64,000 nucleotides of DNA. It comes from Varibaculum massiliense. Its GTDB lineage: Bacteria > Actinomycetota > Actinomycetes > Actinomycetales > Actinomycetaceae. The stretch covers positions 1,798,001 through 1,862,000 of the forward strand of contig NZ_FNWI01000004.1 in the NCBI RefSeq assembly GCF_900106855.1, given 5' to 3'. The notes beneath the pieces are model-generated. The model worked only from the letters and a program-made list of their open reading frames with translations. It did no database searches and had not been told where the DNA came from. The translations under genes were made by a program, and so were the position numbers. Every line of letters begins with the position of its first letter. The first letter of the stretch is position 1. This document shows, one piece after another, positions 51,318 to 64,000 of this stretch.

Positions 51318-51938
51318 GTGACCTCCACATTGATTTTTTCGACCCTCGTCCAGGCGGTAGTGCTATTTGTAGCCACCAACATTGACCACTTGGCGTTACT
51401 AACTTTGTGGTTTGTGCACGGCCAGAATCGCCCCGGAACTACCGCGCGTATATGCGCCGGTCAATATGTAGGTTTCGGGGTAATCCTGGTGATCACCCTG
51501 GTGCTCAGTACGATTTCTGGTTTCGTGATCCCTCAGGAGTACCTGCGGCTTTTGGGGTTGATACCGCTGGCCCTGGGGGTAAAAGCCGGGATCGGCGAAA
51601 TCCGGGAGCGGGTTGGGGCTAGGGACTGCGAGGACGAGGACGAGGCAGAGGCACAACTAAAAGGGAAAAAGGTCAGTGTGGGCGCAGTTGCGTTGGTTAC
51701 TATGGCTAATGGAGGCGATGAAGTAGCCGCCTATCTACCAGTTTTTGCCCTCTCCACCTGGTGGCAAATTGCCCTGTTTTGCGCCGTATTTTTAGTGCTT
51801 GCAGGGGTGCTCTTGGCGTTGGCGCGCATTATTACCGGACGCCTGCATCTAGCAGAAGTCCTAGAACGCTTCGAAGCGATTATTTTTCCCAGTGTACTTA
51901 TCCTGCTAGGAGTGCTAATCCTCGCCGATTTTCTCTAG
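51318..51938 (+). CDS. CadD-family membrane transporter
   Basis: A 206-residue membrane protein with five to six helices matching the cadmium-resistance transporter (CadD) family. It has ATNIDHLALLTLWF near the N-terminus, GQYVGFGVILVI and VTMANGGDEVAAYLPVF in the second half. CadD binds or exports cadmium in staphylococci; other members may move other cations. An acidic cytoplasmic loop (ARDCEDEDEAEAQLKG) includes a Cys and could bind metal. It is divergent from the UPF0237 gene; AATAAT (51306-51311) lies six bases before the GTG, so it is likely leaderless. No ArsR-type repressor is adjacent. Confidence 0.85.
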   Translation: MTSTLIFSTLVQAVVLFVATNIDHLALLTLWFVHGQNRPGTTARICAGQYVGFGVILVITLVLSTISGFVIPQEYLRLLGLIPLALGVKAGIGEIRERVGARDCEDEDEAEAQLKGKKVSVGAVALVTMANGGDEVAAYLPVFALSTWWQIALFCAVFLVLAGVLLALARIITGRLHLAEVLERFEAIIFPSVLILLGVLILADFL

Positions 51939-52273
51939 GCGCATGTAGCTTTTTTTCGAAGGGGCTGCGTATACGGGTGGTAGTCGCTAAAAGTTTCGAT
52001 CGCTGATAGCGCGGAAGTAGATTTTTCCTCCTGCCCAAGAATTTGGAAAACGTAGCGTCGTTTTCCAAATTCTTATGCCCACCGCGCCCGCTCGGATAAA
52101 ATCTCCTCCCGCACTCTCACAGTTGCTTTTACTGAACCAGGGTAGTGGCTATTATCTTCGCCGATTGGCTTTAGGTGTGGCGGCGCAGGCGGGGGAATGC
52201 TGGCTTATAAAGCGGTAAAACCATCAGGCGACTAAACTGGCAGAAAAGCGCGTGCAGAAGGATGGGTGAGCTT
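51939..52273. other. Intergenic region with a structured repeat
   Basis: 335 bases between the CadD-like gene and ybaK. It contains one copy of the structured element described separately (52009-52114). 51939-52008 and 52115-52250 have no recognised gene; the right part is the ybaK leader with GCAGAAGGATGGGTGAG. Confidence 0.7.
52009..52114 (-). repeat. Structured intergenic element, copy 1
   Basis: Outer stem GCGCGGAAGTAGATTTT (52009-52025) with AAAATCTCCTCCCGCAC (52098-52114), 14 of 17 paired. Inner hairpin: AAGAATTTGGAAAACG (52037-52052) with CGTTTTCCAAATTCTT (52059-52074), a perfect 16-bp stem. Conserved blocks, on the minus strand: TTATCCGAGCGGGC and TTGGGCAGGAGGAAAAA. The blocks match copy 2 (56944-57052), while the stem sequences are different. 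Confidence 0.78.
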
Positions 52274-52783
52274 ATGGGGAAGAAACATGTGAAAACTAAC
52301 GCCATGCGCGCCCTCGAAAATGCGGGTATTGCAGCGCAAATGACGCAGGTTTCTTCCAAGGGGGAGTTTTTGGATGCGCTCACGATTGCGCAGGCTTTGG
52401 GGGTGGATCCGAATCTGGTATTCAAAACTCTAGTTTTAGAGGGCGGCCCCGGGGAACATTTCGTGGCGGTAGTACCCGCTACGCATGAGTTGGATTTGAA
52501 AGCTGCGGCCAGGTGCTTTGGGGTAAAGCATCTGACAATGTTGCCCCTAAAACAGTTAACTCCGCTCACTGGCTACCTGAAAGGAGCGTGTTCGCCCTTG
52601 GGGATGAAGAAAGATTTCCCGACGGTGATTGACGAATCCGCTTTTGAGCAAGAAATGATTTACGTATCCGCGGGTAAACGCGGTTATCAGATTCTGGTGG
52701 CGGCAGCAGATTTACAGAGGGTGATTAGCGCAAAGCGAGGGGAGATTTTGCGCCCCCTAAATCATGGCACTCGAACGCCCTAA
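52274..52783 (+). CDS. ybaK: Cys-tRNA(Pro)/Cys-tRNA(Cys) deacylase YbaK/EbsC
   Basis: A 169-residue YbaK-type editing protein that hydrolyses Cys-tRNA(Pro) mischarged by prolyl-tRNA synthetase. Characteristic segments: KTNAMRALENAGI at the start, DPNLVFKTLVLEG (the conserved Lys is in FKTL), FVAVVPATHELDLKA and GYLKGACSPLGMKK. The start chosen is ATG 52274, after GGGTGAG; ATG 52262 is 12 bases earlier and has its purine run directly adjacent, which is less suitable. The gene stands alone, and the downstream region holds a large inverted repeat in front of mntH. Confidence 0.92.
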   Translation: MGKKHVKTNAMRALENAGIAAQMTQVSSKGEFLDALTIAQALGVDPNLVFKTLVLEGGPGEHFVAVVPATHELDLKAAARCFGVKHLTMLPLKQLTPLTGYLKGACSPLGMKKDFPTVIDESAFEQEMIYVSAGKRGYQILVAAADLQRVISAKRGEILRPLNHGTRTP

Positions 52784-52828
52784 CGGCATTGTTGCGTGGT
52801 TTTTATCTTCCGAAAAATCGAGGTAAAG

Positions 52829-52866
52829 TTTCGGGTATACGAAACTTATCTAAGGGATACCCGAAA
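52829..52866. promoter_or_regulatory. Inverted repeat in the mntH promoter region
   Basis: TTTCGGGTAT (52829-52838) and ATACCCGAAA (52857-52866) are perfect inverted repeats 18 bases apart. Nested inside, GTTTCG and CGAAAC (52828-52845) form a second inverted repeat. It lies 50-85 bases before mntH with no T run, so it is more likely an operator, perhaps for an MntR/DtxR-type regulator, than a terminator. It does not match the iron boxes at 2784-2832. Confidence 0.5.
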
Positions 52867-52914
52867 AACGGCTAAGGGAAAGTATAAGTCTAGCTAGATG
52901 AAGTAGTTTCCCCG

Positions 52915-54201
52915 ATGCAGAAAGGTGAAGCTGCGCAAATGGAACAATTAACCCCAGATTCTCAGAACGCTCCCGATGGCAAGGCGGCGGCGAAGAAAGG
53001 GCTGTTGCCGCTACTAGGCCCGGCTTTCGTGGCGGCTGTTGCCTATGTCGATCCCGGGAATGTGGCCGCTAATATCACTGCAGGCGCCCGCTACGGTTAC
53101 CTGTTGGTGTGGGTATTGGTACTGGCCAACCTGATGGCAGTAGTTATCCAATATCAAAGCGCCAAATTGGGGTTAGTTACCGGAAAATCCCTACCAGAAA
53201 TCTTGGGGGATAGACTGCCGAAAGCGAAACGCATCGCGTTTTGGATCCAAGCGGAAATCATTGCGGCTGCCACCGACCTCGCCGAAATAGTTGGGGGCGC
53301 GATCGCCCTGCAACTACTCTTTGGGCTGCCACTTTTAGCAGGAGGCAGCATAGTTGGTTGCGTATCTTTGGCGCTGCTGATTTTTCAGAATGAACGTCGG
53401 CAAAGACAGTTTGAAAGCATTGTGATTGGCCTGCTGGTAATCATTACCGTGGGTTTCCTATCCGGGCTAGTAATTAGCCCGCCCGATCCCGTGGGGGTGC
53501 TGGGGGGATTACTGCCGCGCTTTGCCGGTACCGATACCGTGCTAATCGCGGCCTCCATGCTGGGGGCAACCGTCATGCCGCACGCGATTTACCTACATTC
53601 TTCGCTGGTAAATCACCGGTTTCCGGAGCGGGGTTCCCATGATGTTCCTCACCTGTTACGGGTCTCCAAACATGACGTGGTCTATGCGCTAGTAGTTGCG
53701 GGCGCAGTCAATGTTGCGTTATTGCTGTTGGCGGCTTCGGCGCTATCTGGAAAGAGCGGGACTGACACTATCGAGGGAGCGCACGCCGCCATCCAAAGCG
53801 CCCTTGGCAACGGAATCGGAGTAATTTTTGCGATTGGCCTGTTAGCCTCCGGTTTAGCCTCTACTTCGGTAGGTGCCTATGCGGGTTCGGAAATCATGGG
53901 AGGGCTACTCCATATTCGGGTACCACTATTTACCCGGCGCCTAGTCACCTTGATTCCAGCATTATTGATTTTGTGGCTTTACCCCAACCCCACCTGGGCG
54001 TTAGTTATTTCCCAGGTGGCATTATCCTTCGGGATCCCCTTGGCACTAGTGCCGCTGGCGGCCTATACCCGCAAACGCGAACTAATGGGTAGCTACACCG
54101 ATGGACGCGGAATGCGTTGGATTATGGGCGTCATCGCGGGCTTGATTATTGCCCTGAACCTGCTGCTAGTAGTCCTTACTTTCATGGGAGTAGATGTCTA
54201 G
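52915..54201 (+). CDS. mntH: Nramp-family divalent metal (Mn2+) transporter
   Basis: A 428-residue proton-coupled Mn2+/Fe2+ importer with about eleven helices. Helix 1 has YVDPGNVAANITAGARYGYL (metal-binding Asp and Asn of the DPGN motif) and helix 6 has MLGATVMPHAIYLHSS (Met-Pro-His). The N-terminal 25 residues are hydrophilic. The start may instead be ATG 52939, which has AAGGTG 11 bases upstream; TAGTTT five bases before ATG 52915 would give a leaderless message. A large inverted repeat upstream suggests metal-dependent control. Confidence 0.94.
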   Translation: MQKGEAAQMEQLTPDSQNAPDGKAAAKKGLLPLLGPAFVAAVAYVDPGNVAANITAGARYGYLLVWVLVLANLMAVVIQYQSAKLGLVTGKSLPEILGDRLPKAKRIAFWIQAEIIAAATDLAEIVGGAIALQLLFGLPLLAGGSIVGCVSLALLIFQNERRQRQFESIVIGLLVIITVGFLSGLVISPPDPVGVLGGLLPRFAGTDTVLIAASMLGATVMPHAIYLHSSLVNHRFPERGSHDVPHLLRVSKHDVVYALVVAGAVNVALLLLAASALSGKSGTDTIEGAHAAIQSALGNGIGVIFAIGLLASGLASTSVGAYAGSEIMGGLLHIRVPLFTRRLVTLIPALLILWLYPNPTWALVISQVALSFGIPLALVPLAAYTRKRELMGSYTDGRGMRWIMGVIAGLIIALNLLLVVLTFMGVDV

Positions 54202-54319
54202 ACACCAGCATCCCCAACCCGCGCAGCTGGTTGCAAGCTAGCTGCGTCCTCGAGATAGGCTTTGTTACCTGCAGGCTTTGGGTATTAACCCCGGATTTTT
54301 AGCTCAGAAATAGGGAAAC

Positions 54320-54349
54320 GCCCTCGAGAACAATATTGCTCTCGAGGGC
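54320..54349. terminator. Hairpin between convergent mntH and glgB
   Basis: GCCCTCGAGA (54320-54329) pairs with TCTCGAGGGC (54340-54349) around ACAATATTGC. No T run on either side, so termination would rest on the stem alone. Confidence 0.6.
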
Positions 54350-54389
54350 ACATCCGGGCAAAGCCCCTAAAGGCTGAGATTAGCCGATT

Positions 54390-56573
54390 TTAGTCCCGTT
54401 TGGGGCGCAGCCAGAGGGCGCCCAAGGGCGGTACCCGCAGCTCTACCGAGTAGGGGCGACCATTCCATTCCATGGCTTCGGCGCTCACCTGCCCCAAATT
54501 GGTGACTCCCGAGCCGCCATACTTGGCATCATCGGTGTTGAGAATCTCTTCCCACTCCCCACCGTCAGGTAAACCTACCCGGTAGCCTTCATGGGGATTA
54601 CCGGCAAAGTTGCAGATACAAACCATCTTGTGTTCTTCACCGTGATCATCGCGGTACTTGCGTACATAAGAAATCACGTTGTGTTCAGCATCGTTAGACT
54701 CAATCCACTCGAACCCGGTGTGGTCGTCATCCCACAGTGCCGGTTCGGTGGTGTAGATGTGGTTCATATCGCGTACCGCAGACTGTACTCCCTGGTTACG
54801 CTCATCATCTAGTAAGAACCAGTCCAGGGAACGATTAGCATCCCATTCGGCACCTTGCGCGAATTCGCCCCCCATAAACAGGAGCTGCTTGCCCGGATGT
54901 GACCATTGATAGGCGTAGAGGCAACGCACTCCTGCCAGTTGCCGCCAGTAGTCACCTGGTTGCTTGGCCAGAATCGAGCCCTTGCCGTAGACGACCTCGT
55001 CATGGGAGAGGGGTAAAATATAGTGTTCCGAGAACGCATACACCAGGGAGAAAGTAAGTTCGCCATGATGCCAAGAGCGGTTGACCGGGTCTTCGCGCAG
55101 GTAACGCAAAGTATCGTTCATCCAACCCATATTCCACTTCAAGCCGAAGCCCAGACCCCCGGTATCGGTGGGAGCAGTAACCCCCGGCCAAGCCGTGGAT
55201 TCTTCGGCAATCATGCAGATACCGGGATGTAGCCGGTAGCAGGTGGCATTGGCTTCCTGCAAGAAAGAAATCGCTTCCAGGTTTTCGCGACCGCCGTATT
55301 GGTTAGGATGCCACTGGCCTTCCTCACGGGAATAATCCAGGTACAGCATGGAGGCGACGGCATCGACTCGCAAACCATCGATATGGAACTCTTCCAACCA
55401 GTAAAGGGCATTAGCCACCAGGAAGTTACGCACCTCGTTCCGCCCGAAGTTGAAGATCAAAGTACCCCAATCGGGCTGTTCCCCGCGGGTGGGATCCGGG
55501 TGTTCATAGAGTTTGGTGCCGTCAAAATCGGCGAGCGCAAACTGGTCTTTGGGGAAATGACCGGGAACCCAGTCTAGGATTACCCCGATACCAGCCTGGT
55601 GTAGTTTATCTACCAGGTAGCGGAAATCATCGGGAGTGCCATAGCGGGAAGAGGGGGCATAGTAGCCGGTCTGCTGGTATCCCCAGGAACCATAGAAGGG
55701 ATGCTCGGAAACCGGCATCATTTCTACATGGGTAAAGCCCATATCTTTCACATAAGAGACCAGGTCTTCTGCCAAATCCCGGTAATGGGTGTCATAAGAC
55801 CAAGACCCGATATGCATCTCATAGACCGACATAGGGGAGGTGTGGGGATTAGTTTTTTCCCGCTTCTCCATCCATTCGCTATCTTCCCACTGGTGATGTT
55901 TATCAGTAACTACCGAGGCGGTCAACGGGGGAATCTCGCAGGCGCGCGCCATCGGGTCCGCTTTTTGTCGCCAGTTGCCGTCCGGTCCTAAAATCTCGAA
56001 CTTGTACCGGGCTCCGATTTCCACGTTAGGAATAAACAATTCCCAAACCCCGGAGGAACCCAGGGAACGCATCGAGGAAGTTTCCCCTTCCCAATAGTTA
56101 AAGTCGCCAACCACCCGCACAGCTTGGGCGTTGGGCGCCCACACTGCGAAGGAGGCACCTTTGGTTTGCCCCATTTCGGTCTCGTAGGTGCGCAGGTGGG
56201 CTCCCAGCACCTCCCACAGTTTCTCGTGGCGTCCCTCGGCGATCAGGTAAAGGTCGAACTCGCCCACCGTAGGCAGGTAACGGTAGCCGTCATCTAGCTC
56301 TGTGGTTTCTTCACCGTAGGTGGTGCGCACCCGGTAATCAGGGATTTCGGTGCCGTTTAGGACTGTCACCCAAATGCCATCTTGTTCGTGGGTTGCCGGG
56401 AAAGTACCCTTGGGGGTCACAATCTCGACCGCATCTGCCAAGTGGGCAACGGTACGGATAGTTACGGAGTCCTCTCCAACGTGGGTGCCGAGCACCGAAT
56501 GGGGGTCAAAATAACGCCCATGGGCAACGTTAGCAAGAACATCTGGATCTACTGCTACAGGTTTTGAACTCAT
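54390..56573 (-). CDS. glgB: 1,4-alpha-glucan branching enzyme
   Basis: A 727-residue GH13 branching enzyme forming alpha-1,6 links in glycogen. It has an N-terminal N1/CBM48 region (residues 10-230: [31 protein letters not shown]) and a catalytic barrel. The nucleophile Asp lies in [19 protein letters not shown], the acid Glu in [13 protein letters not shown], and the third Asp in [16 protein letters not shown]-terminal beta domain follows. The length is that of actinobacterial GlgB. ATG 56573 has no clear ribosome site. The region upstream carries structured repeats. No other glg gene is adjacent. Confidence 0.97.
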
Positions 56574-56681
56574 GCATCTAGCGTGTCACGAATCGCGGAA
56601 TAATTCTGTGGAATAGCGCCCCGATTTCCAGAATTTTTCCGACCCGAGTTCCAACAGCGTGCATAGCTCGCGGGACTGCTA

Positions 56682-56830
56682 CGCGTACAGGGGCGGATTT
56701 TGCCTCGCGCCCCGAAATCCGGAATTTTTCCGACCCCCGGAGTTTCAAGAGGGTGCGCGATTTAAAGCTACGCGCGGGGAATAGCGTCCGCGTACAGGGG
56801 CGGATTTTGCCTCGCGCCCCGAAATCCGGA
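56682..56830. repeat. 42-bp direct repeat, 107-bp period
   Basis: The sequence starting CGCGTACAGGGGCGGATTTT and ending GAAATCCGGA occurs identically at 56682-56723 and 56789-56830. The second copy is the left part of structured element copy 3. The first is truncated after the inner-stem left arm, and its tail GAATTTTTCCGACCC (56722-56736) repeats an upstream block at 56631-56645. Confidence 0.85.
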
Positions 56831-56899
56831 AAATGCTCTGGCATTTTCACGGATTTAAGGCCCGAAGCCTACCCCTCGGCATAAATCCGCCCCTGCACG
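56791..56899 (-). repeat. Structured intergenic element, copy 3
   Basis: Outer stem CGTACAGGGGCGGATTT (56791-56807) with AAATCCGCCCCTGCACG (56883-56899), 16 of 17 paired. Inner hairpin AAATCCGGAAAATGC (56822-56836) with GCATTTTCACGGATTT (56841-56856), 15 bp with one bulged A and loop TCTG. Minus-strand blocks TTTATGCCGAGGGG, TAGGC and GAGGCAAAATCC align with the conserved blocks of copies 1 and 2. The CGGATTT/AAATCCG pair occurs in both outer and inner stems, so alternative three-hairpin folding is possible. Confidence 0.72.
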
Positions 56900-56943
56900 C
56901 TAAGTGCGTGCCTCTCGGGTATCTCGTACCGACCGTATTATTG

Positions 56944-57052
56944 GCGCGGGGGATTAGTTTTATCCGAGCAGGCTAGGCGGGCGTAAAACTCGAAAAATGC
57001 CCTTGGGGCTTTTTCGAGTTTTTGGGCAGGAGGAAAAACTAATCCTCCGCGC
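56944..57052 (+). repeat. Structured intergenic element, copy 2
   Basis: Outer stem GCGCGGGGGATTAGTTTT (56944-56961) with AAAACTAATCCTCCGCGC (57035-57052), 17 Watson-Crick pairs plus one G-T wobble. Inner hairpin AAAACTCGAAAAA (56985-56997) with TTTTTCGAGTTTT (57010-57022), capped by GCCC/GGGC. Conserved blocks TTATCCGAGCAGGC on the left and TTGGGCAGGAGGAAAAA on the right match copy 1 in the opposite orientation. Confidence 0.8.
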
Positions 57053-57164
57053 TTTACCCGGAGTGCTTTTACCGAGACAGCCTCGGGATAGGGAAACAGA
57101 TGAATCTATCCCTCGCGCGCGACGGAAGGGATCTCGTTTACACGGTGGTAATTAGCCGGTGGGG

Positions 57165-58634
57165 TTACCAATCAAGGCTGAAGTATTGCACCTCTTGGAA
57201 CTCCCTCATCCCTTCGCGGGCGCCCTCGCGGCCAATACCGGATTGCTTTACCCCACCAAAGGGGGCGGCGGGATCAGAAACCAGACCGCGGTTTACCCCA
57301 ATCATCCCGGCTTCGATTCTTTCTGCTAGGTGTAACGCCCAGTTCAGGTCGCCGTAAACGTAGGAGGCCAGCCCCATTTCGGTGCCGTTTACCATCTTGA
57401 GCAGTTCGTCCTCGCTAGAGTATTCCTTAATGGGGGCGAGGGGGCCGAAGATTTCGTTTTGTAGGAGGGGAGAGTCGGCGCGTGGCACGTCGATAACTGT
57501 GGGTGCCACGAAATATCCGGTCAAATCGTTGGGGAGGGGTGCTTGAGCCAGGACTTTTGCTCCTTGGTCTAGGGCGGACGAAAGTAGCTCGTTGATTCCC
57601 CGCATCGCTTTTTCGTTAACTACCGTGCCGATTTCGGTTTCTGGATCTAGTCCCGCGCCCACTTTCAGAGCCGTTACTCGTTGGCAAAGTTTTTGCGTAA
57701 ACTCTTCTTTAATGTCTTTGTGCAGGTAAATGCGGTTAGCGGCGGTGCAGGCTTGACCGCCGTTTCGGAACTTGGCAACCATCAGCCCTTCGATAGCGGC
57801 GTCTACATCGGCGGTGGCTCCCACTACGAAGGCGGCGTTACCTCCTAGTTCCATGGCGGTATTTACTACCCGAGGAGCGGCGAGCCCCAGCAGGGAGCGA
57901 CCAACTGGGGTAGAGCCGGTGAAAGATACTAGCCGCACCCGGGGATCGGCTAGCCAAGTATTGGAAATTTCGGCAGAGTGACGGGAGGGTACTAGGTTTA
58001 CTACCCCCTCTGGTACGCCTGCCTCTTTTAGGATGCGCATGATAGCGAGGGCGGTTAAGGGAGTTTCGGAGGCCGGTTTTAGCACTACCGCATTTCCGGC
58101 AGCGAGGGCGGGCGCGATTTTTCGGGTAGCCATAGCTGCCGGGAAATTCCAGGGGGTAATCAGCGCGCATACCCCGACCGGGCGGGCGGTAACCAGGGTG
58201 CGTGAGCCTCCTGCAGGCGGGATCGCAAAATCGCCATCGGAGCGGACTGCTTCTTCGGAGAACCAACGGAAGAATTCGGCGGCGTAGGAGGCTTCGCCCA
58301 GAGAATCCGTATAGGCTTTGCCATTTTCCCAGCTCATTAAGCTAGCGAGTTCCTGGGTGGATGCCATCATCAGTTCCCAGGCGCGGCGCAATATCTCGCC
58401 GCGTTCACGTGGGGAGCGCGCTGCCCACCCGGGTTGGGCGCTGACTGCAGCATCGAGAGCCTCACTGGCGTCAGCAGCGGTGCCAGAACTCACTTCGGTA
58501 ATCGTGCTGGTAGTGGCGGGGTCTATTACCGGGAAAGTTTCCCCGCTCGCGGCTGGTCTGCCGGAGTTATTAATCCAAATAGGTTTTGCCGGTTCCAAGT
58601 CTGCAACATACTGCGTTAGTTCTGCGCTATCCAT
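57165..58634 (-). CDS. NAD(P)-dependent succinate-semialdehyde-type dehydrogenase
   Basis: A 489-residue aldehyde dehydrogenase of the GabD group, oxidising succinate semialdehyde (or a similar aldehyde) to the acid. Motifs: PWNFPAAMATRKIAPALAAG, SFTGSTPVGRSL, catalytic Glu in MELGGNAAFVV and catalytic Cys in NGGQACTAANR. FGGVKQSGIGREGAREG near the C-terminus fits. It lies next to glutamate dehydrogenase on the same strand but is separated by a strong terminator; a link to glutamate/GABA breakdown is plausible but there is no gabT here. AGAGG precedes the ATG. Confidence 0.9.
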   Translation of the reverse strand: MDSAELTQYVADLEPAKPIWINNSGRPAASGETFPVIDPATTSTITEVSSGTAADASEALDAAVSAQPGWAARSPRERGEILRRAWELMMASTQELASLMSWENGKAYTDSLGEASYAAEFFRWFSEEAVRSDGDFAIPPAGGSRTLVTARPVGVCALITPWNFPAAMATRKIAPALAAGNAVVLKPASETPLTALAIMRILKEAGVPEGVVNLVPSRHSAEISNTWLADPRVRLVSFTGSTPVGRSLLGLAAPRVVNTAMELGGNAAFVVGATADVDAAIEGLMVAKFRNGGQACTAANRIYLHKDIKEEFTQKLCQRVTALKVGAGLDPETEIGTVVNEKAMRGINELLSSALDQGAKVLAQAPLPNDLTGYFVAPTVIDVPRADSPLLQNEIFGPLAPIKEYSSEDELLKMVNGTEMGLASYVYGDLNWALHLAERIEAGMIGVNRGLVSDPAAPFGGVKQSGIGREGAREGMREFQEVQYFSLDW

Positions 58635-60275: not shown

Positions 60276-61772
60276 ATGATTACTGTGCAGGCGCTGCTCG
60301 GGCGACCGCAGCTACATATTCAATCCCTGTGGTGTCCCAATCCCTTGGCGAAGCTACGCTGGGTGGCGACCTCGGAACAGATAAATCCCGCTACTTTCTT
60401 AGAGGGAAACGAACTGCTGCTGACCACTTCCGCGGGGAATCCGGAGGGTGAAGGAGGCTGGCTAGAGTATACCCAGCGCCTGTTGGTCGGGGGTATTACT
60501 ACCCTGGGATTCGGTTTAGGGTTCAGCCACGATACCGTTCCTCCGCTATTGGTGCAGGCAGCCCGAAAAACCGGTCTTAACCTAATAGAGGTTGCCGCCG
60601 ATCAATCTTTTGTGGCGCTTTCTCAAGAGGTGGCGCGGATGATCGAGGTCGAAGCTACCTCGGGAAAATATAAGCTCACGGCTTTGCAGCAGCGCCTGAT
60701 TCAGGCATCTGCGCAGCCGCGCAGTGTCTACATGATTACCGGGGAGCTAGCGCGGGGAATCGGCGCCCTAGTAATGGTCAGGGATACGGCGGGCAGGACA
60801 ATAACGCAGACAATAGCCCCTACGGTAACTGTTGATTTAGAGGACTTAGCGGCAGACTCTTGGGAAAGATTTTCCGCCAATATGGCGCAGCTTTCCTTTG
60901 AAACCGAGGAAGGCTACTGTCTTTTCACTGCTATTAACGCTCTTGGGCAGGAAACCGCCTGGTTGCAAGCCTGTTGGACTACCTTTCCCCAGCCGTGGCA
61001 GCAGCAGGCGCTTTCCCAGGCGGGGCTGTTAATCGCTTCGGCCTTAGCTAACTCCCGGTTTGTTTCCTCCTATCATGGGCGCTTGTTGCAACGGGCTTTT
61101 GAACTGTTACTTTCTGGGGAGCTGGGGGCGGCGCAGATTCTAACCGAGATGGCGTTTCCTCTCTCTCGCGCCTTAAGCGGGCGGTATGTGCCGGTAGTAG
61201 TTACGGGGGAAGAGGGGGATTTGCGGGTCTTGACTGCTCGGGTGGAGCGGGCAGTGACAAAAAGTATGCCTCCACCGCTGTGGCGTTTTCACGCCGAAAA
61301 TCTGGAGATGGCGATTCCGGTAGCGGCGTTGCCGCTGACTTTGTCGAACTTTTCCCGGAAAGAGTTTTCTGCTTTGCGAGCAGGCGTGGGGCAGGAGTAC
61401 CCGATCTCTCGTTTTAGTTCGGGTCTCTCTGGGGCGCGGCAGGCGCTGCGGCACACCGGAAATAGTCAGCAGGTAGCCCGCTGGGAAGAGATTTCTCGTT
61501 CCGGGCTAATGCAGGTGATAGGTAGGGAAACCGCGGCTGCTTTTTCTCAACAGTTTCTGCGACCCCTGCGGGGAGAGACAGACCTGCTGGAACTGCTGGA
61601 ACAATATGTTGCCACTAAAGGTAACCGGCAGCAGATGGCCAATACCCTGGGGCTGCACCGCAATACGGTGGCGAAGCGGCTAGAAAAACTGCAAAGCAAA
61701 CTCGGGATTAACCTGGCAGAAGCCGGTGCCCAAGCCTCCGCCTGGGTAGCCCTCCAAGGACGCGAGCCCTAA
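60276..61772 (+). CDS. PucR-family transcriptional regulator
   Basis: About 498 residues. The N-terminal PucR (purine catabolism regulator-like) domain is recognisable: ITVQALLGRPQLHIQSLWCP, then EGNELLLTTSAGN and LVQAARKTGLNLIEVAAD. The C-terminal helix-turn-helix of the family reads LLEQYVATKGNRQQMANTLG followed by HRNTVAKRLEKLQ. Family members control purine, amino acid or nitrogen use. The divergent neighbour is glutamate dehydrogenase, a possible target. The start is ATG 60276 because CATAAT ends six bases before it; the GTG at 60261 lies within that promoter. The stop overlaps the convergent surface protein gene by 3-4 bases. Confidence 0.9.
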   Translation: MITVQALLGRPQLHIQSLWCPNPLAKLRWVATSEQINPATFLEGNELLLTTSAGNPEGEGGWLEYTQRLLVGGITTLGFGLGFSHDTVPPLLVQAARKTGLNLIEVAADQSFVALSQEVARMIEVEATSGKYKLTALQQRLIQASAQPRSVYMITGELARGIGALVMVRDTAGRTITQTIAPTVTVDLEDLAADSWERFSANMAQLSFETEEGYCLFTAINALGQETAWLQACWTTFPQPWQQQALSQAGLLIASALANSRFVSSYHGRLLQRAFELLLSGELGAAQILTEMAFPLSRALSGRYVPVVVTGEEGDLRVLTARVERAVTKSMPPPLWRFHAENLEMAIPVAALPLTLSNFSRKEFSALRAGVGQEYPISRFSSGLSGARQALRHTGNSQQVARWEEISRSGLMQVIGRETAAAFSQQFLRPLRGETDLLELLEQYVATKGNRQQMANTLGLHRNTVAKRLEKLQSKLGINLAEAGAQASAWVALQGREP

Positions 61773-64000
61773 CGGTCTTGGCGCAGTTTGCGCGCCGTGA
61801 GCAGTCCGGCACCGGCGAGTGCCAGAATCGCGGAGATCAAAGCCAAGGTGGCTCCGTTCGCGCCGGTCACCCGCAAGGAAGAGGGCGCCGGACCAGCCGC
61901 AGAACTAGACCCCGCAGAAGAACCACCTGTTATATAGGCACCGGCAGGGGCTTCGGTAGCTCCGCCGTTTTGGCCAGCTGACGGCTGCGTAGTGCTTCCA
62001 CCGTTGTCACCCGGTTGGGGTTCAGCGGTGGGGTCAGTCGGCTCGCTAGTCGGATTATCAGTAGGCTCCGTAGTCGGAGGTTGTTCCGGATCCGCCGGGT
62101 TAACGAGCGGACTCGTCGCGTTTTGTGACCACTTACCGTCCGTCTTATTAAAGGACAGCGTTTGCGGTTCTGCTAGTTTCATACCTTTGGCAGTCGTTAG
62201 CTGCTCTAGCCGGTACTGCAAGGTTACGTCATCAACCTGCACCTTATAGGCACCGACAGCGCCGTTTAGGTCAGTGGGTACCCTGAAGGAGGTGGGGCCA
62301 CTGACAAAATCCGTGACCGTAAAGGCAACCGCGGTATTGGGCTTCCCATCTTTGCCCAGGGGAGTGATCTGGAAAGAAGTCCCGGCTACTGCCTGACCTT
62401 TAGAATCAACCACTTTCCAAGTGAGTTCTCCGCCAATTGGTTGCGTAGGGTTATCAGTGGGCTCCGTGGTCGGCTCCGTTCCGGGCGTAGTCGGCTCGGT
62501 ACTGGGATCCGTGGTGGGATCGGTAGTCGACTCGGTAGCTTTCTTAGCATTGCTAATCACCAGCGCCCCATCAGTGAGGTCAACCCTGGTGCCATCTGGC
62601 GAAACCTGAACTTTTCCATCCTCATAGCTGATGGTGTAGGTCTTGGTGTCTTTTTCGTAGCCTTCCGGTGCTTCGGTCTGCTGCAACTTATAGGTCTTAG
62701 CTTGATTCAAAGTGGCCTGGAAAGAAGCATCTGCCGCATTTTCAGAGATACTGACCTTTTCGCTGCCATTAGTTAGGGAGAAGCTGCCGCCAGATAAAGG
62801 CTTCTTCGAATCTTTATCTACCAGTTTCCAAGTGAACTGGGCGGTCCTCATCACCGGGGTGTTTTCAAACTTGAGGCCGCTTCCTTCTACGTTTTGGAGG
62901 TAGCGTCCGTCAGCTTGCTTCGTGAAAGTTACCACCTGGGCGCCCGTCTTAGGCGCAAAATCAGGGCTGGTGGTTAGCTGTTCCACCTGGTACTTACGGG
63001 AACCATCCGGGACTACTACCCGGTACTGCCCCTCGCCCTTGTTCAAATCAAGACTGACCGCCGTGGTGGCATCAGATACGGTGAAAGCTTTCTCCGCATC
63101 CAAGGTCGTGCCATCGGCCTTAAAAGGAGTAATCTTAAAGGAAGTTCCTGGCACATACTGGGTAGCATCCGCGGAAGAAACTACTTCCCAACGAATCTCT
63201 GCCGGGGTGGGCAGCTTGACGTTCTTAATGACCAGACCGGTATCCGGCAAGTCTTTCCCGCCAATCTGCGACCGGTAGCTGGCACCATCGGCAACAAAAG
63301 TGAGCTGATAGCTGGCGGTATCGGCTTTGTAACCACTGGGAGCAGCAGTTTCAGTCAAAGTATAGGTCTTCTTGGGATCAAGATTCGAAGCACTGTAAGT
63401 CCCCGGATTAGCCGCATCTTGCGAGGTAACCGTGAGCGGAGTTTCCCCACCGCTCACGGTAAAGACTGCCCCATTGAGGCTCTTGCCGGCAGTGTCGGTT
63501 AGTTTCCAAGCAAAAGAAGTAGTGGCCGGAGGTTTCGGTAATGCCACATTAGTGAAGGTAACTTCGCTGGTTTCTTTACCGGCAACCACCGCGGCCCAAA
63601 TGCCGTTGGCATTATCTTTCTCTTTGAAACTAATTTCGTAGGAGGTGACGTCACCCAGCTCGTAGCCTTCGGGGGCGGCAGTTTGGGTGAGGGTACACCC
63701 TCCCTTGGTGGGATCTAAAGAAACGCTATAACTGCCCGAGGCAGTACCCGCAGCGGGAACTGCTACCTCCTCAGAGCCACAAACCAGTTTGAAGCTGCCG
63801 CCGGGTAGTAGGTTCTTATCTGCATCCTGCAGTTTCCAGTTGAAGGCTACCGGCTGGGGAGGCAGCGGGGTCTTGGTATTGGTAATAACAAACGCTTCAC
63901 CGCTGATTGCCTGGTCGTCCACTTTTGCCTGGTATTCCTGAGAAATCTTTTCAAAAGTAACGGTATGGGTTCTTTGCTGCGGCAAGTCGTAGCCCGAGGG
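61769..64000 (-). CDS. SpaA-repeat surface protein with LRVTG sorting signal (5' end outside window)
   Basis: A cell-wall protein cut by the right window edge; the frame stays open to base 64000, reading PSGYDLPQQRTH, which is the end of a repeat. Five complete SpaA/CnaB-like modules follow, each starting about FxWKLxDxxGK and ending near an APxGY-type turn. Between the last two is a linker rich in Thr, Pro and Glu. The C-terminus has LRVTG (61862-61876), a hydrophobic stretch LALISAILALAGAGLL and basic end TARKLRQDR, i.e. a sortase-type signal with Arg in place of the LPxTG proline. The TTG at 63985 is internal, not a start. Probably an adhesin or pilus component; no sortase gene is visible. 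Confidence 0.85.
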   Translation of the reverse strand, partial: PSGYDLPQQRTHTVTFEKISQEYQAKVDDQAISGEAFVITNTKTPLPPQPVAFNWKLQDADKNLLPGGSFKLVCGSEEVAVPAAGTASGSYSVSLDPTKGGCTLTQTAAPEGYELGDVTSYEISFKEKDNANGIWAAVVAGKETSEVTFTNVALPKPPATTSFAWKLTDTAGKSLNGAVFTVSGGETPLTVTSQDAANPGTYSASNLDPKKTYTLTETAAPSGYKADTASYQLTFVADGASYRSQIGGKDLPDTGLVIKNVKLPTPAEIRWEVVSSADATQYVPGTSFKITPFKADGTTLDAEKAFTVSDATTAVSLDLNKGEGQYRVVVPDGSRKYQVEQLTTSPDFAPKTGAQVVTFTKQADGRYLQNVEGSGLKFENTPVMRTAQFTWKLVDKDSKKPLSGGSFSLTNGSEKVSISENAADASFQATLNQAKTYKLQQTEAPEGYEKDTKTYTISYEDGKVQVSPDGTRVDLTDGALVISNAKKATESTTDPTTDPSTEPTTPGTEPTTEPTDNPTQPIGGELTWKVVDSKGQAVAGTSFQITPLGKDGKPNTAVAFTVTDFVSGPTSFRVPTDLNGAVGAYKVQVDDVTLQYRLEQLTTAKGMKLAEPQTLSFNKTDGKWSQNATSPLVNPADPEQPPTTEPTDNPTSEPTDPTAEPQPGDNGGSTTQPSAGQNGGATEAPAGAYITGGSSAGSSSAAGPAPSSLRVTGANGATLALISAILALAGAGLLTARKLRQDR

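Follow-up and report, generated by a model that had tools for sequence, protein, structure and literature searches.

A 64,000-nucleotide stretch of the genome of Varibaculum massiliense (contig NZ_FNWI01000004.1, positions 1,798,001–1,862,000, referred to here as the window) carries three repeat units of about 107 nt that belong to one family with roughly fifty copies per Varibaculum genome. Copy 1 (52006–52116) and copy 2 (56789–56900) are read on the minus strand and copy 3 (56943–57053) on the plus strand. Each unit consists of an outer stem, a conserved left block, an inner hairpin and a conserved right block; on the sense strand, taken as the strand of copy 3, the order is outer arm, TTTTATCCGAGNNGG(CTAGGC or CGCGGT)GGGC(G/A)T, inner hairpin, TTGGGC(A/G)GGAGGAAAAA, outer arm. 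These units are probably genus-specific, non-coding, nested-palindrome interspersed repeats with a lifestyle like that of the repetitive extragenic palindromic (REP) sequences and bacterial interspersed mosaic elements (BIMEs), or of ERIC, and with an upkeep that we propose to be driven by their hairpins. The observed base of this assignment is that the copies are numerous and nearly restricted to the genus, lie between genes near 3′ ends with a bias in orientation, form divergent pairs, and differ at orthologous sites by inversion of the core and by swaps of sub-family.

In the genome of V. massiliense, blastn with copy 3 gave 57 rows and a pattern scan gave 46, of which 41 were kept (four were dropped as false by eye and one, at 474220, is a half-decayed copy). 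A covariance model, R1, built from an alignment (A2) of 41 own-genome copies, gave 90 rows at E up to 1; removal by hand of reverse-strand rows and rows covering the inner hairpin alone left 54 places in 2.28 Mb. Most matches to the conserved blocks in this genome fall inside elements (43 of 47 rows for the left block, 47 of 53 for the right). Over 59 genomes, the own genome and 58 relatives, R1 gave 48–63 rows, some of them on the reverse strand, in each of six Varibaculum genomes and no match in the other 53. The two-block pattern was found in 97 stretches of named genomes, and the 80 that were listed came from V. cambriense DFI.7.46 and DSM 15806, V. vaginae and a record labelled 'Tissierella sp. 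Marseille-P2918', which we take to be a mislabelled Varibaculum because the sequences flanking its elements follow the same order as in the own genome and match it at about 75–87%. A second model, built from 129 matches, matched eight of 213 Actinomycetaceae genomes, namely the six Varibaculum genomes and two of other genera with one copy each; there was no match at E up to 1e-6 under strict filters in 395 other genomes drawn from the phylum (396 including the own genome). The strict filters applied in all searches over more than 40 genomes, and weak matches can be lost under them. Thus, the original prediction of one structured family with conserved blocks and many further copies was borne out, the covariance-model search of the genome and its relatives revealing about 54 places in the own genome and a distribution nearly limited to Varibaculum.

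The two stray copies lie in DNA resembling that of Varibaculum, 1.4 kb around the copy in genome G124 being 90% identical and several kb around the one in G195 being 81–89% identical, and we infer that they arrived with chromosomal segments. These Varibaculum-like segments (L213, 6361–7787, and L214, 3205–10638) are in themselves apparent cases of DNA transfer into two other Actinomycetaceae genera. Both copies stayed single in their hosts and did not multiply; therefore, multiplication may need something present in Varibaculum, or the arrival may be recent. Phages and plasmids gave no blastn match to copy 3, and an origin from either was rejected, the lone matching IMG/VR contig being a bacterial assembly locus (100% over 2905 nt). 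The original prediction had recognized no known family, and indeed cmscan of positions 51900–57200 against Rfam at E up to 5 gave three matches, all within 52600–52765 and none at the elements. No description of these repeats was found in the titles and opening abstract lines of the open-licence papers listed, which does not imply their absence from print.

Genes were called with a simple purpose-made gene finder, and no overlap between any of the 54 own copies and a called gene exceeded 20 nt. Of 53 own copies classed by the gap in which they lie, 25 were in convergent, 21 in tandem and 7 in divergent gaps. Among the 46 with a facing gene 3′ end, 30 of the 34 within 150 nt of that end were antisense to the gene and 4 were sense (p 6e-6), compared with 5 antisense and 7 sense beyond 150 nt; within 45 nt the numbers were 16 and 2. 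The same arrangement was seen in the other Varibaculum loci, where a gap class could be given to 141 of the 163 copies (77 in convergent, 57 in tandem and 7 in divergent gaps, with two copies overlapping a called gene) and 65 copies within 100 nt of a gene 3′ end were antisense and 16 sense; p-values for these loci are too good because many of the copies are orthologous to each other. Adjacent copies with spacers of up to 350 nt, counted by hand in the own genome, were arranged (−,+) in 12 of 14 cases and (+,+) in two, with no (+,−) pair; the 25 adjacent pairs in other Varibaculum loci included 19 (−,+), one (+,−) and five on the same strand. In one own pair, 1931226(−)/1931441(+), the outer arm pairs better by eye with the arm of the neighbouring copy, as if the spacer between the elements had been inverted by recombination.

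That the stems vary in sequence yet keep pairing, as had been claimed from the three window copies, holds across the family. RNAalifold predicted 32 pairs in the 41 own-genome copies, 22 of them with changes on both sides. Of 1310 cells, 94.6% were paired, against 83.9% after shuffling, and 145 were doubly changed, against 39 in shuffles (0 of 500 shuffles reached 145) and 16–48 when partners were slid by 1–3 columns. The covariation score was 0.351, against 0.148 for shuffled alignments and 0.045–0.118 with slid partners. In the middle of the outer stem (nine positions; 202 distinct copies from several species), 90.5% of cells paired with the arm of the same copy and 69.1% with the arm of another; the corresponding values for the inner stem, where fixed offsets misplace some copies, were 86.2% and 76.1%. 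Pairing is therefore kept per copy.

Selection on structure, which the original prediction had drawn from this pairing, does not follow from it: template switching between arms and conversion between copies can also keep arms paired, and signs of both were seen. For the same reason, covariation alone is no proof of RNA function. These signs come from a comparison of orthologous sites, matched across species by their flanks. After 18 of 222 instances with weak scores had been left out, 67 pairs whose flanks matched over 180 nt or more formed 36 sites; the loci compared were those fetched for holding an element, plus stretches of G004, so that losses are under-counted. Judged by the label of the left block, 25 sites carried the same sub-family (some with differences in the loop), eight carried another sub-family in one genome and three (5 of the 67 pairs) had an inverted core. 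At the inverted sites, the flanks and outer arms align straight through and the core alone is flipped. The first of these is window copy 1, where the own genome (and, by inference, V. vaginae) has one orientation and G003 (L068), DFI.7.46 and G004 (L190) have the other, the 'Tissierella sp.' record (L091) also being opposite; the second lies at 1102.5 kb (own genome versus G004) and the third is seen between L080 and L119. Because the outer arms stay unchanged, we read all three as in-place inversions and not as separate insertions. The suggestion that the elements behave as a hairpin or cruciform in DNA thus gains partial support, from 3 of 36 sites.

Two further sites illustrate finer changes. 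The loop and left block are altered at 765 kb, within flanks that share up to 99% identity with those in G004. At 2020.7 kb, L124 reads GGGCCCAAG... and the own copy (2020725) reads GGGCATAAG...: in L124, two base changes in the left arm make the 21-nt arms fully complementary (as checked by eye), and the 4-nt loop is reversed (AGCG versus CGCT). The consensus leaves one of these two bases unpaired and has the other in a U-G wobble; the G004 ortholog (L054) has the usual form. In this one hairpin, the arm and loop changes together look like what template switching should leave.

We propose that the element would fold as a two-level hairpin during replication, that the polymerase would switch template between the arms and copy one onto the other, so that the arms stay complementary, and that such switching would occasionally flip the spacer. 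Recombination between copies would exchange cores, and the conserved blocks must be kept either by something sequence-specific, such as a binding or mobilizing protein, or by conversion between copies. The likeliest effect on the host at present would be that of a first strong hairpin past the stop codon, defining the transcript 3′ end or shielding the gene from antisense transcription, as the placement of the copies suggests. Hairpin-driven copying and conversion between copies as the means of upkeep is supported by the orthologous sites but not proven. Part of the RNA-like covariation, perhaps a large part, would then be a product of mutation and conversion. It is possible, although we put this forward only tentatively, that mutation is its main source, with arms rewritten jointly by template switching, whole cores of about 70 nt inverted where they stand and cores swapped from one copy to another.

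Several observations weigh against this account. At orthologous sites with elements in the same orientation, 704 outer-stem cells were compared: 608 were unchanged and paired, 28 were doubly changed and paired, 38 were changed on one side and still paired, 27 were broken by a one-sided change and three were of other kinds (18 element pairs with poor outer pairing were skipped, inverted pairs were left out, and several pairs share a site). Furthermore, 18 of the 28 compensated double changes came from two element pairs, L184/L081, where one site seems to hold two different elements, and L041/L164, whose differences include the gain or loss of one base pair across the two arms. Homogenization of the arms is therefore not overwhelming, and single-step changes also occur. 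Inversion of the core could also stem from recombination between the arms, and reversal of the apical loop alone is rare: among 203 distinct copies, 74 had the usual loop, two had it reversed and 127 had others, including the own copy at 569881, which looks reversed with one change. There was no clean empty site among 28 candidate rows, many of them in repeat-rich DNA; in the best candidate (L075 versus L090), the element is absent, but other changes are present. Inspection by eye of 30 own copies showed no target-site duplication. Finally, G-U pairs exceed A-C on the sense strand of the outer stems (84 versus 26 cells; 65 versus 21 distinct contexts), as expected from selection on a sense-strand RNA.

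The last point bears on what we consider a rather unlikely alternative, that the family is a structured RNA, either a small RNA or an element of mRNA 3′-untranslated regions, selected for its fold and binding a protein or ligand with its internal loops. The covariation well beyond controls, the conservation of the internal loops and the nearness and orientation of the copies to gene 3′ ends all agree with it. However, the inner stems show no comparable asymmetry (G-U 23, A-C 20), making the strand test evidence on both sides; furthermore, 3 of the 36 orthologous sites carry the core on the opposite strand, Rfam holds no relative, and just two copies were found outside Varibaculum, both in transferred segments. 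An unlikely alternative is a non-autonomous mobile element similar to miniature inverted-repeat transposable elements (MITEs), whose folded strand would be recognized through the conserved blocks by a putative transposase or recombinase. It would account for blocks that are dispersed and near-identical, for differences in presence between the own genome and G004 and the existence of partial remnants (by eye), and for the quite different elements at one site in two species (L184/L081). Against it, the arms, although they pair and partly share their outer GCGCGGGGG and inner TTTT parts, differ between copies in their middles, the two copies transferred to other genera did not spread, target duplication was not seen by eye, and the Y1_Tnp domain was absent from all six Varibaculum genomes, other transposase families not being searched. 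A larger gene-carrying relative in the own genome was likewise rejected: six of the 53 right-block rows lie outside elements, and the one examined (1430288), together with an enlarged copy at 1429431, looks like a remnant, the lone right blocks at 329017, 1077798 and 1297777 having been left out of this inspection. A dedicated bidirectional transcription terminator or insulator, positioned after genes by selection, is very improbable despite the stable folds and the antisense excess within 45 nt of gene 3′ ends, since the outer stem is, by eye, not followed by a U-tract, several comparisons of the own genome with G004 show the element missing from the other genome or a different arrangement there, and the core is inverted at three sites.

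The three window copies were found by R1 at the places and in the orientations originally given, and on either strand their predicted folds are much more stable than those of dinucleotide shuffles (z of −6.2, −9.2 and −6.6 on the sense strands and −6.5, −7.6 and −8.2 on the opposite strands; 0 of 200 shuffles folded as well for any element or strand). Copy 1 (108.5 bits) lies between a Cad-family transporter gene (51318–51938, plus strand) and a gene with a tRNA_edit domain (52262–52783, plus strand; both Pfam names), 68 nt past the stop of the former and antisense to it. One of its outer arms, the 3′ arm of the sense strand, occupies 52009–52026; its inner hairpin (52037–52074, minus strand) has perfect 16-bp arms at 52037–52052 and 52059–52074, and its conserved left block (52073–52101, minus strand) reads TTTTATCCGAGCGGGCGCGGTGGGCATAA on the sense strand. 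Copy 2 (52.3 bits, E 2.6e-11) represents a divergent sub-family, GCCGAGGGGTAGGCTTCGGGCC ... GGGGCGCGAGGCAAAA, with 18-nt outer arms (56790–56807 and 56883–56900) that are 94% complementary; its first part, 56789–56831, is exactly duplicated in a partial element of 43 nt at 56682–56724 (plus strand). Copy 3 (106.4 bits), which diverges from copy 2 across a spacer of 42 nt, consists of the left outer arm (56944–56961), the conserved left block (56958–56986), the inner hairpin (56985–57022), the conserved right block TTGGGCAGGAGGAAAAA (57021–57038) and the right outer arm (57035–57052), the blocks and hairpin being read on the plus strand; it lies 112 nt from the 3′ end of an Aldedh (Pfam) gene (57165–58634, minus strand) and is antisense to it. 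Conservation of the blocks was originally judged best between the first two copies and looser in the third; a divergent copy does exist, but the closest pair is 52009–52114 and 56944–57052, with 56791–56899 as the divergent element, and the original numbering fits only if 56944–57052 is counted as copy 2. Allowing for a G-quadruplex in the G-rich internal loop left the predicted fold unchanged in all four copies tried. Elsewhere in the window, positions 61769–63985 hold a gene for a large SpaA-domain protein (prealbumin-like fold).

Next to copy 3, at 57057–57080 (plus strand; contig C4, 1855057–1855080), lies a fragment of a second palindromic repeat family, matching at 96% over 24 nt. The 87-nt unit of that family, GGGTC..GGTAAAAG ... 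CTTTTACC..GACCC, gave 20 blastn rows in the own genome, nine of them spanning 79 nt or more of the query; examples lie at C4:1486904–1486990, 1512507–1512593 and 1328267–1328353. Seven of the nine long rows are on the plus strand and within 400 nt to the right of a minus-strand element of the first family, one of them 1 nt away. By eye, a second-family element in L091 (1–640) seems to enclose one of the first, so the two families may nest. By eye, several decayed copies have their left part replaced or adjoined by another recurring unit, resembling TTCGGATACCCGGCT (C4:474161, 2209823 and 1429431, L010 and L016). One of these, C4:1429431–1429603, has an enlarged interior, and about 700 nt further, at 1430288, there is a lone right half with the same arm.

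If hairpin-driven copying does generate most of the covariation, the family would be a natural counter-example to the view that covariation, on which the case for a conserved RNA structure normally rests, proves selection on that structure. Each of six related genomes contributes about 50 copies, which gives dozens of orthologous comparisons in which template switching or conversion would leave visible marks such as flipped cores or copied arms, and with closely related strains the old ambiguity could be tested directly. The family also adds to the REP-like elements an actinobacterial, nearly genus-restricted repeat with a marked rule of placement at 3′ ends.

We file the family as a new variety of small palindromic interspersed repeat, REP/BIME-like but distinct from RAYT-type REPs, because the Y1 transposase and the unit size of the latter are lacking and Rfam has no match. 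The Y1 (RAYT) transposase domain PF01797 was present in 5 of 14 control genomes, and mobilization of the RAYT/IS200 type was rejected on its absence from all six Varibaculum genomes, other transposases not being searched. REPs bear an unpaired GTAG or CGTC tag at one end; none was noticed by eye in the 41-copy alignment, in which no systematic search was made. attC sites end in RYYYAAC and GTTRRRY boxes. The ends of the 41-copy consensus do not fit these boxes by eye, and no sign was found of the attachment-type DNA that had been suggested, integrases not being searched. ERIC, RUP, NEMIS/Correia and bcr1 are of a similar size class, interspersed, able to fold into stem-loops and limited to a genus or species group. 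We know of no nested plan with in-place inversion of the core in any of them; their likeness to the Varibaculum family is one of description. The bcr1 repeats are 147–167 nt long (PMC2267715).

REPs, as described in one survey, lie between convergent or unidirectional genes near 3′ ends, often as two units in opposite orientation, and those of the CGTC type also occur without a dedicated Y1 transposase (PMC3733652). The Varibaculum repeats resemble REPs and BIMEs as portrayed there in being palindromic, intergenic and multi-copy, in their 3′-end placement in convergent and unidirectional gaps and in their inverted dimers. They differ in unit size, REPs measuring 20–40 nt and the present units about 107 nt, with one stem nested inside the other and extended conserved blocks in the internal loops, and in stems that vary widely between copies. 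As for the proposed upkeep, template switching at quasipalindromes is described as homogenizing arms and inverting spacers (PMC8604942) and has been proposed to give rise to compensatory changes in RNA stems, inversion of the loop being its strongest but very rare sign (PMC8794818). The Varibaculum family shares with such sites both the homogenization of arms and the inversion of spacers or loops between related genomes. However, the quasipalindromes of those two papers are in single genes or rRNA and have short spacers or loops, whereas here an entire repeat family is involved and spacers of about 70 nt have been inverted at several sites.

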